Part shown: in pieces, positions 44,463 to 52,453 of the stretch
Layout: every line of letters starts with the position of its first letter
How positions within the stretch are numbered: position 1 is the first letter of the stretch
Assembly: GCA_945883495.1 (NCBI GenBank)
Contig: CAMCXS010000004.1
Location: forward strand, 1 to 64,000
Direction of reading: 5' to 3'
Length of the DNA: 64,000 nucleotides
Origin: Akkermansia muciniphila
GTDB taxonomy: Bacteria; Verrucomicrobiota; Verrucomicrobiia; Verrucomicrobiales; DEV007
Position numbers and translations under genes: made by a program
Notes under the pieces: generated by a model
The model's database searches: none
The model's input: the letters and a program-made list of their open reading frames with translations, nothing else
Told to the model about the DNA's origin: nothing

Positions 44463-47400
44463 TTACGGAACGATTTCGGCGATTCCAATCTCCGAGACGC
44501 CATCTTGGAAGAGACCGCCCAGAAGCTTCTGATCATCGAAGTAGACAGTCTCAATGGTAATGGAGTTGCCGGCAGGGGATGTCACCTGCCAGACGAGAAC
44601 TCCTGTGCTTTGATTGAAGGTGCCAGTGCCCGTCGATATAGACCAGCTGATATTGTTGGTCGAGATAGTGGCGGAGTGCTGAACATCTGTGGGATTGCCC
44701 AGCAGATTCACCGTGGCCGTGGCCTTGCCAAGAAGAGATTGGAGCGGCGCTGGAGTGTAGAAGGATCCAATGGCCACGATGCTGATCGGGGCTGGCTGCC
44801 CGTCGATCGCCCACGTCAACGTGCCGTTGAAGTCGCTAATGCCAGCTTGTGGTGTCCAGGTCAGCGTGCCTTTCAGGGTATCACCGGTCTGTGGAGCTGA
44901 TCCTGTAGCGTTGACGGTTAATTTCCGATTCACTACGCTGACGCTTTCGATGAACTGGGAGCCATCGCCCATATTCAAAGTCAACTGTCCCTTCAGCGTG
45001 TTGTCCAGGATTAGAGTTCCGTAGCCGTCGCCGATACCAGTAATCGAAGGAGGCAGCGGTAGCAAGATTGTATACTTGCCGGCACCGGTCTTGGCGGCGT
45101 CCGTGGGGAATAAGTCGGAGTTGTCTCCTAGCCCGTCGCCATCGCCGTCCTTGGACTCATTTGGGTTATTGGGAAATGCGTCTTGGACGTCCGGAATTCC
45201 GTCCCCATCGGAATCGAGAATAGCTGATGTCTTGGCAAGTGGTGACAACGTTTGGGACGGAACCGGAGTTTGGATGACGGACACATTGTCGATCAAGTTG
45301 GCTGCTCCCAGGCCCGAGGCTCCAGATATAGGGACGAGCACGAACTTCGTTTGGGTCTGGCCGACGGGGACGACATAGGTGCCTTCATACTTCACCCAAG
45401 ACGTGTTGCCGGTGGTGAATGTCTTCACCCGAGTCAATGCGCCCGCGGCGGGGCCCAGATCGAGCGCTACGGTGTCGTTGCCGCCGCGACCTCGGTGATA
45501 GAACGACCAGGTGAGAGTGGCGCCCGGAGTGGTGGGCAGCGTCTGCTCTAGAGATCCACCGTCCATCTCGATGAGTTGGATGCCTTCTTGAGAGGGGAAA
45601 CCGAGATAGCCGGACTTCCAAACCTCAATTTTGTTTGTGGACTTGCTCGTGAACCATCCCACGACCGCATTACCCTCGTCGAGTTTGAGGAATGTAGTGG
45701 GTTTAGGAGTGGTATTCTCAAAGCTGCCGTTGGTAATCAATTGCACGGGCGTAGCACCATTGAGTGGATCATTCGGAAACGGATCGGAGTTGTCGCCGAT
45801 GCCATCGCCATCGCTGTCTATGGATTCAAATGGGTTGTTGGGGAAGGCGTCCAGGGCATCCGGTACTCCATCGCCGTCGGAATCGATCGGAGGCGGCGGA
45901 TTGGTTGTTGATAAGTGTTTGCCGATGGTGATGGCGCTGATCTTCGCTTGGTCCACCACTGTGGTGAATTGAAGCGTCAAGCTGCCAGATGTGGTGGGCT
46001 TTGTGACGAATGTCTTAACATAGGCTTTGTTGATGCCGCCGGCCGCTTGGAAGATGTCAAAATCATCTAGGACGACTTTCCCATTGATGATTACGTCGAA
46101 GATGCGCTTGCCTGAGGTCGTCCAGTAGATCTCCGCAAAATGCATGTCGATGCGGTGGTAGGCCGCCGGATCCAGTCCGGTAAAGGTGTAGGTGAAGTTC
46201 TGATTACGCTCCGTTTGATAGATTCCGGCGGGAATCCCTGAGGCGGCGCCGGAAATGGGGGCCGTAGAAGAATACGTTCCTCCGCCTGTAAAGTTCGAAT
46301 CGGCCAGAAAGTTGCCTATCGCAGGACCCGCTGCATTCACGGCGAGAATGGGCTGCAAGGAGCCAAGAGTTGTGTTATCCCCAACGCCGTCGCCATTGGC
46401 ATCCGCCCACTCTGTCGGATCGGAGGGGAACGCATCGGAGTTGTCTCCGAAGGTATCACCGTCCGTGTCCTTCCACTCTAGTGGGTTGTTGGGAAACGCG
46501 TCCTGGCTGTCTGGAACTCCATCATTGTCGGAGTCGACGCCAGACACACTGCCTAAATGTTTCCCGATGACGATAGCGCTGACCTTGGCTTGATCGAGAA
46601 CGGTAACAAAATCGAGGCTGACTTTGCCCCCTGCGTCTGGTTTTACGACGAAGGCTTTGACGTGTGCCGTATTGATCCCACCAGCTGCGGTGAAGATATC
46701 GAAGTCGTTGAGAACCACTTTGCCGTTCAAGTTCACGTCGAAAATGCGTTTGCCCGGTTCTGTCCAGAAGATCTCGGCGAAGTGCAGTTCCACTCGATGA
46801 TAGTGAGCAGGGGACAATTTGCTGAAGGTGTAACTAAATGTCTGGTTGCGTTCCGTTTGGTAAACGGCGCTGGGCACGTTCGCGGAAACTCCTGTGATAG
46901 CTGCCGTGGTGCTGTAGCTGCCACCGCCGGTGAAATTGCTATCCGAGGTGAATCCTCCGATCGCCCCACCACCCGCGTTGACGGCCAGAAGTGGTTGAAG
47001 ATTTCCAAGGACGGTGTTGTCGCCCACTCCGTCTCCGTTTGCATCCGCCCACTCGGCTGGATCGTCGGGGAAGGCATCGGTGGCGTCGGGGACTCCGTCG
47101 CCGTCGCTGTCGAGATTGGTGGGACCGCCGTTGCCGAGGTGTTTGCCGATGACGATTCCGCTTACCTTGGCTTCGTCGAGAACGGTGGTGAATTGCGCGG
47201 TGATTTTTCCGGTGCTGTCGGGTTTGGTGACCAAGCTCTTTACATAGGCTTTGTTGATGCCTCCCGCAGCCACGAACACGTCAAAGTCATTGAGGACGAG
47301 TTTGTCGTTCAGGGTGACATCGAAGAGTCGCTTGCCTGGCTGAGTCCAGAAAATCTCAGCGAAGTGGAGATCGATTCGATGGTAGGATGATGGATCCAGG

Positions 47401-50400
47401 CCAGTTATTGTGTAGGAGAAATTCTTGTTTCGCTCCGTCTTATACACAGCATCCGAAACGCCAGAGGGCATCCCAGAAATTGGCGCAGTCGTGCCGTAGG
47501 TCCCTCCGCCGGTAAAATAAGCGTCACCGCCAAAGCTGCCGGTAGCAACCCCACCGGAGTTCAGCGACACGATCGTCTGTACGGCTCCCAGAACGGTGTT
47601 GTCGCCCACTCCGTCTCCGTTGGCATCTGCCCACTCAGTGGGGTCGGAGGGGAAAGCGTCACCGTTATTGCCTACACCATCTCCGTCCGTGTCCGCCCAT
47701 TCGAGCGGGTTGTTCGGAAATGCGTCCTGAGCGTCTGGCACGCCGTCTCCATCAGAGTCGGTGATGCCGGTGTTCATCCCGTTGATCCAGGTGGTGAGGA
47801 GTGACACGTAGGCTGGGTGAGGGATCGTGGTGCCGAGCGGTGGCATCTGGATGGATGGGTTGCGGCTGGCATCTCGAACCGCGAAGATGGAGTTGGCGGC
47901 GTCTCCTGGCTTGATGAGCTTGGGATTTGTCAGCCCGAGAGTGTCGGCGCTCGGGTTGGCATTGATCAAACCGGCCAATTCCAGCGGAGTAGTCAGTCGT
48001 GCATCAAACACGGCGCGTCCAGCCGTCCCGCCTGGGCGGTGGCAGTTGGAGCAATTCATGTCGATGAAGGAGCGAGCGCGGGACTCGACGGACGCCGAGG
48101 TGTCGCTGAGGCTCTTGGCTGTAATGTAGGTGGGCAATAGGGAAGTATTGAGCGATTCGTGGAATATCGCTTTCGAGTTCAGGTAAGTGATCTGGTTCTG
48201 TGTTCCCTGAGTGGCGTAAGGATATGCCCAATTGAGGGAAAGGGTTTTCGCTCCCAGGACGCGGCCAGCAGCTTGTTGGTGACAGTCCATACAGGCGCTT
48301 TGACTTGGGAATTGCCAAACCTGGTTGGTGACGGTCCCACTGCTTTGGGTCACCGGTATGGTTGCAGTGGATGCGTTATTCTGCAGAAATGCTTCGGTGC
48401 CCTCGACATTCCACTTGTAGGAGAAGGCAAAGTAGCCGTCCGCTCCATGCACTAGGAATCGGGTTTCGAGGCGGACGACACTGGTCGGATTGCTGGCGCT
48501 GACCGGGAGTTCGAAGTGTTTCACGAAAACCGATCCCGCGGGGAAAGACCATTCGCCGTTAGCGGAAAAGACGATCTTTTCGGCGGCGGTGTTGTGGGTT
48601 CCGTCGTTCGGAATGGCCATCCAGCGATGTTTTGCGGAATTGTCGCTCCAGAGTGGGGAGGCCGGCTCGTAGGGGATTAAGCCGGGCGCAGGGGTAAGAG
48701 TTGCCAAGTTGGTGAAGGCGCCGGTTTGAGATAGGAGGGCAGGTGGCTGTGGGTTCGGAACGCCGACGCTGACTGTTTTGTAAATGACGCCAAGGTTGTA
48801 GTTGACTATGTAGAGATTTTGCTTGTCAGGGCTCGACTTGATCGCGGAGATGCCGCCGTCGATGTCCATAATAATGGAGTCTTGGGCACCCGGTGTCTTG
48901 TAAGCTTTGGCCCAGACTCGGCCTGAGGTGAAATCACAATAGACCAACTTGCCTTTCAACGATGGAAATTGATCGCCTTGATACACATCGCCATCACCCA
49001 TCGCGTTTCCGTTTCCGTTGGTGTGGTTGTATGAGGCGACGTCCTCCGTGAAGACGCCCATCGGAGTGTTGATCAGGGTGGGGCTGTTGTGGACCACGGG
49101 GACGGGAGCCGCAATGCCGGTTTCAAAAGTTTTGGAGATGGGGCCCTCCCAGTAGGGCCAGCCATAGTCTCCTTTCGGCTTGAGGAGGTTCACTTCCTCC
49201 CACTTGTCACCCATGTTGGAGCCCGCATCGAAGAAGAGGATGTCACCGGTGACGGAGTCCTTGGTAATGTTCCACGGGTTGCGAACTCCCTTGCCGTAGT
49301 GCTCCTTGAGAGCGGTGGCGATGTTGTTGTAGGGATTGTCGTCTGGTATGTGATAGCCAATGCCGGAAAAGTTTCCTGCACCAGCGTAGCGGCCGCTGTT
49401 TAGACTCTTGGTCGTCTGAATCCCGTTCACCAAGCCTCCTTGAAGGGTCCGTGTGGGCTTCAGATTGGTTGGTTTCATATCGACATCAATTCGGATGATG
49501 GAGCTTTGGAACATGGTGTCCAACGTCATGCAGTTGGCATACTCCTCGTCGGTCCACTCAAGGTCTCCATACATGAGGACCAAGTAACCCTGGTTGTCGA
49601 AGATCATGGCGCCGCCTGTATGGTCGAAAATGACGACGTCCTTGGTTTGGATCATGACCAACTCCGTCGAGTTGTCGATCTTTCCGGTGGCCGGGTTTCG
49701 AGTAAACCGGGAGAGCCGATTGTACATCACCGCATTTTGAATTGTCTGGTAGTAGACATAGACAAAGTCTTTGTTCGGTGAGCCGGGGACATTGAACTGC
49801 GGGTGGAAGCAGAAAGCGCTCAACCCTCCGTTGTGATTAAGGGAAACCCGGTCGCCAATGTCCATGAAGGTTTCGGCGTTGGTGACGCTTGAGTTTTCAT
49901 CGAAAACTTTCATTTGTCCCCCCCGGAGCCGGGCAATCAATTTTTGAGGCGCAGTGTTTGGTACCGCATAGAGACTCATAATGTTGGGGAGCTGTCCAGC
50001 GAGCCCTGGGAAGGCGTTGACCACATCGAAGCCGCCCGAGGCAGAAGTCTGTGTGGGGTTTAGGGAGGGTAACTTCCCGTTCAAATAGGGCCCGACGGCT
50101 CCGGCGGCACCCATGCCGGACTGGATTTCGGATGTTGCGGTGTAGGCCCCAGTGAACAAGGCTTTGGCTTCGATTGCGCTGATTTTCGCGTTATCAATCT
50201 CCGGGTTGAAATCAAACAGCAGCTGACCGCTGGCGTTGGCGTAGGCGAGAAAGGTCTCGACGATCGCCTTATTCTTGCCGCCGGCTTTAGCTACGATGTC
50301 GTAACCGGAAAGAATAGACTTACCGTTGAGATCCACGCTGAAGAGCCGTTTTCCAGGTGTATCCCAGTAAGTTTCGGCAAAATGGAGTCGGACTTCGCAC

Positions 50401-50663
50401 GGGGCATCGGGCGGGAAGCCATCCAGGGTGTAGGTGAAATCTCCAGCCCGCTCGGTCTGGTAGATGCTCATGGGATACGAGCCGTTTCCCGAGATCGTGG
50501 CGGTGGTAACGTAGGTGGGGGAGCCACCTACGAACTTTTGATCGGCCGAGAACGGACTGACTGCCGTGCCGCCGGAGTTGATCTTGTAAGTTTGGCCAAG
50601 CAGGGGGCTTGGTGCCAGCAAGATCGACAGACCCAAGAGAACGCGGGAGATGCGGTGGCGCAT
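44463..50663 (-). CDS. Giant secreted malectin / sorbosone dehydrogenase / cytochrome / TSP3 protein
   Basis: Protein of 2066 residues with a signal peptide (residues 1-24). A malectin-type carbohydrate-binding domain covers 25-170 (LHFAETYWDTPGKRLFSVDLNG). A glucose/sorbosone-dehydrogenase beta-propeller lies at about 230-650 (HNGGLSAFCFHPQFN, YGKGVRNPWNIT, PKGDYGWPYWEGP). Two c-type haem motifs follow: CMDCH at 791-795 and CSNCH at 871-875. Calcium-binding TSP3 repeats (DSDGDGVPDAQDAFPNNP) alternate with three more malectin domains (about 1035-1590). Then come a beta-sandwich domain (LITNGSFENTTP onward), more TSP3 and a C-terminal Ig-like region. It probably oxidises or binds extracellular sugars and passes electrons to haem (inference). 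No membrane anchor or sorting signal is obvious. Confidence 0.92.
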   Translation of the reverse strand: MRHRISRVLLGLSILLAPSPLLGQTYKINSGGTAVSPFSADQKFVGGSPTYVTTATISGNGSYPMSIYQTERAGDFTYTLDGFPPDAPCEVRLHFAETYWDTPGKRLFSVDLNGKSILSGYDIVAKAGGKNKAIVETFLAYANASGQLLFDFNPEIDNAKISAIEAKALFTGAYTATSEIQSGMGAAGAVGPYLNGKLPSLNPTQTSASGGFDVVNAFPGLAGQLPNIMSLYAVPNTAPQKLIARLRGGQMKVFDENSSVTNAETFMDIGDRVSLNHNGGLSAFCFHPQFNVPGSPNKDFVYVYYQTIQNAVMYNRLSRFTRNPATGKIDNSTELVMIQTKDVVIFDHTGGAMIFDNQGYLVLMYGDLEWTDEEYANCMTLDTMFQSSIIRIDVDMKPTNLKPTRTLQGGLVNGIQTTKSLNSGRYAGAGNFSGIGYHIPDDNPYNNIATALKEHYGKGVRNPWNITKDSVTGDILFFDAGSNMGDKWEEVNLLKPKGDYGWPYWEGPISKTFETGIAAPVPVVHNSPTLINTPMGVFTEDVASYNHTNGNGNAMGDGDVYQGDQFPSLKGKLVYCDFTSGRVWAKAYKTPGAQDSIIMDIDGGISAIKSSPDKQNLYIVNYNLGVIYKTVSVGVPNPQPPALLSQTGAFTNLATLTPAPGLIPYEPASPLWSDNSAKHRWMAIPNDGTHNTAAEKIVFSANGEWSFPAGSVFVKHFELPVSASNPTSVVRLETRFLVHGADGYFAFSYKWNVEGTEAFLQNNASTATIPVTQSSGTVTNQVWQFPSQSACMDCHQQAAGRVLGAKTLSLNWAYPYATQGTQNQITYLNSKAIFHESLNTSLLPTYITAKSLSDTSASVESRARSFIDMNCSNCHRPGGTAGRAVFDARLTTPLELAGLINANPSADTLGLTNPKLIKPGDAANSIFAVRDASRNPSIQMPPLGTTIPHPAYVSLLTTWINGMNTGITDSDGDGVPDAQDAFPNNPLEWADTDGDGVGNNGDAFPSDPTEWADANGDGVGDNTVLGAVQTIVSLNSGGVATGSFGGDAYFTGGGTYGTTAPISGMPSGVSDAVYKTERNKNFSYTITGLDPSSYHRIDLHFAEIFWTQPGKRLFDVTLNDKLVLNDFDVFVAAGGINKAYVKSLVTKPDSTGKITAQFTTVLDEAKVSGIVIGKHLGNGGPTNLDSDGDGVPDATDAFPDDPAEWADANGDGVGDNTVLGNLQPLLAVNAGGGAIGGFTSDSNFTGGGSYSTTAAITGVSANVPSAVYQTERNQTFSYTFSKLSPAHYHRVELHFAEIFWTEPGKRIFDVNLNGKVVLNDFDIFTAAGGINTAHVKAFVVKPDAGGKVSLDFVTVLDQAKVSAIVIGKHLGSVSGVDSDNDGVPDSQDAFPNNPLEWKDTDGDTFGDNSDAFPSDPTEWADANGDGVGDNTTLGSLQPILAVNAAGPAIGNFLADSNFTGGGTYSSTAPISGAASGIPAGIYQTERNQNFTYTFTGLDPAAYHRIDMHFAEIYWTTSGKRIFDVIINGKVVLDDFDIFQAAGGINKAYVKTFVTKPTTSGSLTLQFTTVVDQAKISAITIGKHLSTTNPPPPIDSDGDGVPDALDAFPNNPFESIDSDGDGIGDNSDPFPNDPLNGATPVQLITNGSFENTTPKPTTFLKLDEGNAVVGWFTSKSTNKIEVWKSGYLGFPSQEGIQLIEMDGGSLEQTLPTTPGATLTWSFYHRGRGGNDTVALDLGPAAGALTRVKTFTTGNTSWVKYEGTYVVPVGQTQTKFVLVPISGASGLGAANLIDNVSVIQTPVPSQTLSPLAKTSAILDSDGDGIPDVQDAFPNNPNESKDGDGDGLGDNSDLFPTDAAKTGAGKYTILLPLPPSITGIGDGYGTLILDNTLKGQLTLNMGDGSQFIESVSVVNRKLTVNATGSAPQTGDTLKGTLTWTPQAGISDFNGTLTWAIDGQPAPISIVAIGSFYTPAPLQSLLGKATATVNLLGNPTDVQHSATISTNNISWSISTGTGTFNQSTGVLVWQVTSPAGNSITIETVYFDDQKLLGGLFQDGVSEIGIAEIVP
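45900..47600 (-). repeat. Three imperfect direct repeats encoding malectin-TSP3 modules
   Basis: Within the giant gene three tandem modules of about 540-630 bases each encode the same order: TSP3 acidic loops, then a malectin domain with the shared segments YQTERNQNF, HRIDLHFAEIFWT and FDVFVAAGGINKAYVK. Centres are near 47350, 46750 and 46130. They differ at many positions, so they are old duplications and not recent copies. Confidence 0.75.
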
Positions 50664-50935: not shown

Positions 50936-51283
50936 TCAGCGCTCAGTTGAGGAAGCGTCTGCTTCCCACAGATCGTTGTTGATGGTCAGGGCTGTCACCC
51001 TGCCCTTCGCGGCAGCGGCCACGACCAATTGGACTTCCTGGTTTGCATTGCCGGCGGCGTAGAGCCCTGCTACGCTGGTCCGTCCTGCTTCGTCACGGCA
51101 TACCCAGCCTTCAGCTTCGTCGATCAGGCAACCCGGTTGAACGGCCAATGACGAGGGTTGGTGTTGCGATGGGTAGAAGAAGAACGCTCGGCGGGGCAGG
51201 AAGTTACGATTGCGGAATCGGATGCACACCAGATTTCCTCCGAAGTCTTCCAGCCGCCCGAGCGTTCCATGAGTCACTTCCCA
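50936..51283 (-). pseudogene. C-terminal remnant of a thioredoxin-reductase-like flavoprotein
   Basis: The last 115 or so codons of an ORF read as the C-terminal half of an FAD/NAD(P) reductase: LGRLEDFGGNLVCIRF, FFFYPSQHQPSSLA, then GRTSVAGLYAAGNANQEVQLVVAAAAKGRVTALTIN, which is the FAD-binding GxYAxGD-like motif and final helix. The N-terminal FAD and NADPH Rossmann motifs are missing. Upstream of about 51283 the frame becomes Arg/Pro/Ser-rich nonsense that is antisense to the start of the ion-channel gene. So the gene is truncated and probably non-functional. Confidence 0.65.
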
Positions 51284-51460: not shown

Positions 51461-52453
51461 ATGAGATCCCGGATTTCGCACACTCAGCTTCTGACCATTT
51501 TCTGCGCCTTGGGCTTCATTGGGAGCTCCCAAGCCGAGGAACCGCATCAGGTAACGATTGGGATGTATGTGAACGACATCCAAACCGTGGATCTCACCAC
51601 GTATTCGTATGCGGTTGACCTGTATCTCTGGTTTCGCTGGAAAGATCCAGAGCTCGATCCGGTCTCACAGTTCGAGTTTATGAATACCTTTGATCCAGAG
51701 GCGCACGTGCGCACCGTGCTTTACGATAAGCCTGTGCCGCAACCAGACGGGACGCTGTATCAAATCGTGCGGCATCAGGGCTTGTTCAGCGCCAAGTTCC
51801 CATTGCAAGATTACCCCTTCGATAAGCAACTGCTCACCGTTACCGTTGAGGATACCACGATGACAGCGACCCAGCTAATCTTTGTTCCGGACAAGGAGCC
51901 AGTTACAGTTAACGGCGAGATTCGGCTGCCTGGCTACAAGCTGGACAGAGCCACTGTGTTGATCCGTAACAAGCCGTACCCCACCGCGTTTGGCGACTTA
52001 GCGGATCCGGAGATCGAGCCCTACTCACGAGTCGAGTTTCGCATTCCCATCTCCCGTCCACCGATCTCGGGGCTTCTGAAGACTTTTATTCCGGTGATTC
52101 TGATTATCCTGTCAGCGGCGTTCGCCTTGTTGCTTGATCCCGGCCATGTCGAGGCGCGGATCGGTCTGGCAATTACGGCTTTACTGACTTTGGTGGCCAT
52201 GCAATTTACCATGCTGTCCGGCTTGCCCGAGGTAGCCTATTTGACCTTGCTCGACCAAGTTTATTTGGCATCGTACCTCTACATCCTCGTGGTCATCGGG
52301 ATTGTTGTGCAAGGCACTCGATCGGATCAAATGGGGGAGTTGCGAGGGGATGTTGTCGCCATTCCTTCCAGTGGCCACGGCATATGTGGCCTGGTGACCG
52401 GGGGCTACTTAGTCTTGGTAGCTGTGATCGTGATGCTCAATGTGCTGATTTGA
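51461..52453 (+). CDS. Pentameric ligand-gated ion channel (prokaryotic Cys-loop-type)
   Basis: Protein of 330 residues. The signal peptide is residues 1-25 (GSSQA). The extracellular beta-sandwich (about 28-198) has VDLYLWFRWKDPEL, like the loop D region of the family, and the LQDYPFDKQ segment (115-123), equivalent to the Cys-loop with its Pro-Phe-Asp but without cysteines. Four membrane helices follow at about 203-226 (M1), 231-252 (M2, pore: ARIGLAITALLTLVAMQF), 264-284 (M3) and 308-329 (M4). The M3-M4 loop is short, as in GLIC and ELIC. ATG 51461 opens the signal peptide. The ligand and ion selectivity are unknown. It is convergent with the PQQ-repeat gene. Confidence 0.9.
   Translation: MRSRISHTQLLTIFCALGFIGSSQAEEPHQVTIGMYVNDIQTVDLTTYSYAVDLYLWFRWKDPELDPVSQFEFMNTFDPEAHVRTVLYDKPVPQPDGTLYQIVRHQGLFSAKFPLQDYPFDKQLLTVTVEDTTMTATQLIFVPDKEPVTVNGEIRLPGYKLDRATVLIRNKPYPTAFGDLADPEIEPYSRVEFRIPISRPPISGLLKTFIPVILIILSAAFALLLDPGHVEARIGLAITALLTLVAMQFTMLSGLPEVAYLTLLDQVYLASYLYILVVIGIVVQGTRSDQMGELRGDVVAIPSSGHGICGLVTGGYLVLVAVIVMLNVLI

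Follow-up and report, generated by a model that had tools for sequence, protein, structure and literature searches.

Bacterial pentameric ligand-gated ion channels (pLGICs), PBP-fused forms included, have been described since the survey of Tasneem et al. in 2004 (PMC549065). Two members serve as references here: GLIC, the proton-gated channel of Gloeobacter violaceus, in which E35 is the key proton-sensing residue (PMC5760087), and ELIC, the amine-gated channel of Erwinia/Dickeya. The bacterial forms were split by Tasneem et al. (PMC549065) on the motif hWxP into an animal-like group, with the Gloeobacter and Erwinia channels, and the rest. As of 2016 none of the pLGICs of unicellular organisms had a known biological role (PMC4795631), and among open full texts we found no paper in which 'pentameric ligand-gated ion channel' occurs together with 'Verrucomicrob'.

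The gene described here lies in a 64-kb stretch of verrucomicrobial DNA (the window, meaning the whole stretch that was analysed) and encodes an intact bacterial Cys-less pLGIC. It is a new member of the bacterial family known since 2004 and not a new kind of system. The channel gene, its parts and a neighbouring gene remnant are located as follows.

51461..52453, + strand: pLGIC gene, 330 aa plus stop; ATG at 51461, stop ending at 52453
51461..51535, + strand: predicted signal peptide, residues 1-25; cleavage after SSQA predicted from sequence; low-confidence helix 8-18 in the model
51536..52060, + strand: extracellular (periplasmic) beta-sandwich domain, residues 26-200; Pfam Neur_chan_LBD, model strands 29-198
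51812..51823, + strand: Pro-loop YPFD motif, residues 118-121; matches the [F/Y]PxD of PMC4795631
52061..52132, + strand: M1 helix, residues 201-224, with K207 and P211; from the model and the alignment of relatives
52148..52216, + strand: M2 pore helix, residues 230-252; E231 (-2'), A232 (-1'), R233 (0'), L242 (9')
52247..52345, + strand: M3 helix, residues 263-295; AlphaFold2 model
52373..52447, + strand: M4 helix, residues 305-329, after a short M3-M4 linker; AlphaFold2 model
50939..51277, - strand, outside the channel: remnant, the C-terminal third of a thioredoxin-reductase-like flavoprotein gene; from Pyr_redox_2 and an intact relative

The ATG at 51461 is the start matched by genus-mate alignments; starting at an alternative GTG, which lies 24 bases further upstream, would lengthen the protein by 8 residues. 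The original prediction had assigned the protein to the neurotransmitter-gated channel family, and profile searches, the test set beforehand, place it there. Pfam PF02931 (Neur_chan_LBD) matched at E=5.6e-8, over its curated cut-off, and PF02932, the membrane domain, at 5e-4, under its cut-off. TIGR00860 of NCBIfam (4.8e-21, residues 25-282) and NF033918 (2.8e-16) also matched, each under the strict cut-off of the model. With the single sequence, phmmer matched GLIC and GLIC-chimera chains in the PDB at 1e-15 to 1e-19; a subfamily profile of 36 sequences reached GLIC and GLIC chimeras at 1e-33 to 1e-37, its match to GLIC (1e-33) spanning profile positions 24-326. The assignment to the family is firm.

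The AlphaFold2 monomer model, built from the 36-sequence alignment, has a mean pLDDT of 89.5, with low confidence in the signal peptide part, and bears out the predicted layout of signal peptide, beta-sandwich, YPFD loop and four helices. Residues 24-330 superpose on GLIC, GluCl, GABAA and glycine receptors (Foldseek, VIA-align); the best structural match is GluCl (Z 25.5, rmsd 2.4 over 287 residues), and Foldseek matched GLIC at 5e-23. GLIC (fold Z about 24.5) shares the Cys-less ligand-binding domain and M1-M4 core, the short M3-M4 linker, YPFD, the pre-M1 Arg and an acidic -2' at about 19-21% identity over the full chain, but has N at 0' where the query has R. ELIC has the same architecture and fold class (6hjx, 22% identity by Foldseek). 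The cysteines of the Cys-loop are usually missing in bacteria. No Cys was found between residues 26 and 200, so the flanking pair of animal Cys-loop receptors is absent and membership of that group was rejected. All seven of the most-conserved superfamily positions listed with the [F/Y]PxD definition in PMC4795631 (Table 1) are present: Y118, P119, D121, the beta9 aromatic Y159, the pre-M1 Arg R199, the M1 Pro P211 and the M2-M3 Pro P256. P119, D121, R199, P256 and R233 are invariant across the 36 sequences; the relatives were gathered with the patterns YLWFRWK and FEFMN[TP]F, which biases the set to carriers, so part of the invariance of the pattern residues comes from the way the set was collected. 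The five verrucomicrobial copies are near-identical from M2 into the M2-M3 loop, although over their full length they diverge by as much as 45%.

The main departure from GLIC lies in the stretch that carries loop A. The universal Trp (W60) and P119 of the Pro-loop are 59 residues apart, compared with 73 in GLIC, which is thus 14 residues longer here, and the hWxP motif before strand 4 was not found in the query. Nearly all of the 36 sequences have the short segment without hWxP; in four (L039, L040, L060 and L061) the segment is longer, at 65-72 residues, and likewise lacks the motif, and the sole W.P match, a WKP directly after strand 2 in L057, is not hWxP. The loop A region of the ELIC ligand pocket is likewise not conserved in the query. 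Since Tasneem et al. (PMC549065) already divided the bacterial channels on hWxP, its absence is not new in itself; the distant bacterial ART-LGICs of that study, set apart from the Gloeobacter/Erwinia type, also lack it, a likeness drawn by description. Our searches turned up no solved structure or established function within the collected clade. It is doubtful that this hWxP-less clade (Verrucomicrobiota, Hirschia, Elusimicrobiota, Myxococcota, Bacteroidota, Actinomycetota and others) forms a functionally distinct pLGIC class whose principal binding face does without loop A and which is gated from another site, in a genus that also carries a conserved 823-831-aa pLGIC with a large N-terminal domain.

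The channel was found in all three examined genomes of its genus, at 83-84% identity. Against both genus-mates (L024 and L025) dN/dS is about 0.06, indicating strong purifying selection, and dS exceeds 1.7, so that synonymous sites are nearly saturated; the gene is therefore old in the genus and constrained. A close form occurs in 5/75 family genomes, the three genus members and two others at 55-58%. Some pLGIC at E<=1e-10 is present in 16/75 family genomes and, in a phylum survey that scored no more than five candidates per genome, in 19 of the 387 genomes sampled, in keeping with the patchy distribution expected of prokaryotic members. The predicted Verrucomicrobiota origin was upheld. The tree groups all five verrucomicrobial copies in a single clade (95/94). 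This clade is sister to two channels of Hirschia (Alphaproteobacteria; L027 and L029), with 49-60% identity and the same architecture, inside an assembly of mixed phyla. An old cross-phylum transfer is possible, with a direction that cannot be told from the tree. Relatives were not found on viral contigs, and those on plasmids are distant (about 35%) and mostly on very large Azospirillum replicons, and thus give no sign of a mobile carrier. In both Hirschia genomes the order argG, pLGIC, rhodanese-domain protein, VWA-domain protein is kept, an arrangement not seen at the verrucomicrobial loci; the two genes downstream of the Hirschia channel might be its functional partners.

By contig search, the source genome carries four pLGIC genes, the top count among the genomes listed in the family and phylum surveys. 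One (G000 contig C99, L021:9632-11974, - strand) encodes 780 aa with a Peripla_BP_6 domain of the periplasmic-binding-protein type (5.1e-16) ahead of the channel part; PBP-I fusions to pLGICs have been known since Tasneem et al. 2004 (PMC549065). Another, on contig C26 of the same genome (38349-39311, - strand, L016), encodes a stand-alone channel that belongs to a different subfamily. An 823-831-aa pLGIC-related protein is encoded on contig C19 (L090:972-3443, + strand) and in the genus-mates (L091:1300-3795; L092:1216-3687), is 80-82% conserved across all three examined genus genomes and matches the pLGIC profile in its C-terminal part (hhalign 1.7e-12); Pfam and PDB sequence searches recognised no part of it, including an N-terminal region of roughly 430 aa. 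A family relative (G008 contig C126, 35348-36247 and 38159-39064; L014, L007, L023) has two related pLGIC genes about 2 kb apart.

The degraded gene noted beside the channel is real. The remnant matches Pyr_redox_2 weakly (profile positions 248-291 of 291, E=0.0044), shares 35% identity with a portion of an intact 308-aa enzyme from a relative, and was not found in the two genus-mates searched. The suggestion that this broken neighbour marks a recently acquired foreign gene did not hold up, and we regard it as very improbable. In its favour are the G+C content of the gene (53.7% vs 60.1% for the window), flanks not common to the genus-mates and a nearest outgroup in the alphaproteobacterial Hirschia. 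Against these stand the presence of the gene throughout the genus with dS above 1, which places any transfer before the genus; the monophyly of the verrucomicrobial copies; a neighbouring gene (44463-50663) of similar G+C (55.8%) and GC3; and the lack of tRNAs in the 64-kb window and of repeats at the site. Rearrangement fits the missing remnant and unshared flanks equally well; recent transfer is not supported, and the remnant proves nothing about it. The neighbour at 44463-50663 (- strand) encodes a giant 2066-aa protein with a GSDH domain, four malectin-domain matches and an apparent signal peptide. This malectin/GSDH protein, a PQQ-repeat protein, a thioredoxin and a 2-oxoacid oxidoreductase (by eye) flank the channel; they were not found beside it in relatives, and thus offer no functional lead. 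Across lineages no kept gene neighbour was found, the large components being the channel itself, antisense ORFs or close strains, so the neighbourhood holds no hint of a ligand.

The gating and selectivity of the channel can be read in several ways. GLIC is by sequence the nearest bacterial channel of solved structure, and acidic residues are kept at three of eight GLIC positions that alter proton activation (PMC5760087), E26, D122 and E222 corresponding to D39, D121 and E231. However, D121 and E231 are general features and not sensors as such, E35 is replaced by Y48 (mostly H, N or Y in relatives), and D32, H235, E243 and H277 align to L45, L244, L252 and G285. With 5/8 of the listed residues not conserved, a proton-gated cation channel working as GLIC does was rejected on residues and is improbable. 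An amine-gated channel with an ELIC-like aromatic box at the subunit interface has about the same low likelihood: Y55 (loop D), Y173 and F177 are conserved aromatics and ligand boxes of this aromatic kind occur widely across the superfamily (PMC549065), but the loop A stretch, part of the principal face, is missing, and conservation of Y55 and W57 comes partly from the search pattern used for relatives. The expectation of small-amine or pH responses thus finds no sequence support; because the clade lacks hWxP and most of the proton-sensing residues of GLIC, the sequence allows no inference of a ligand or of gating by pH. As for selectivity, the pore begins E-A-R, joining an acidic -2', as in GLIC, to an A-R pair. 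The A-R pair is typical of animal anion channels. A232-R233 fits their A-[R/K] motif, and the top PDB sequence matches are chimeras with GABAA or glycine receptor membrane domains, yet the -2' residue is acidic as in cation-selective GLIC (D or E in 33/36 sequences), and an anion-selective pLGIC is rather unlikely. Cation selectivity is favoured with fair confidence by analogy with the known family, although in prokaryotes this site is not a general predictor of selectivity (PMC4795631).

The gene very likely encodes a functional bacterial Cys-less pLGIC in which a periplasmic solute or ion gates the M2 pore, and which probably conducts cations. Family, fold, conserved coupling residues and purifying selection come from our computations, and the pentamer, the gating route and the cation selectivity are taken from the known family. 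The signal peptide would export the protein for insertion in the inner membrane, where it would assemble as a pentamer, most likely a homopentamer. By analogy, a small periplasmic solute or ion may shift the conformation of the beta-sandwich, and the D121-R199 pair, with the Pro-loop and the M2-M3 loop, would relay the change to the pore. The M2 bundle would then open, with the L242 ring as the putative gate, and ions would flow, probably cations given the acidic ring at -2' (E231). The physiological role is perhaps solute sensing.

By itself the channel opens no new question, and its interest is modest, as a family member of a known bacterial kind. As a short pLGIC with a very conserved pore and no loop A stretch, it is a reasonable candidate for structure determination and ligand screening.
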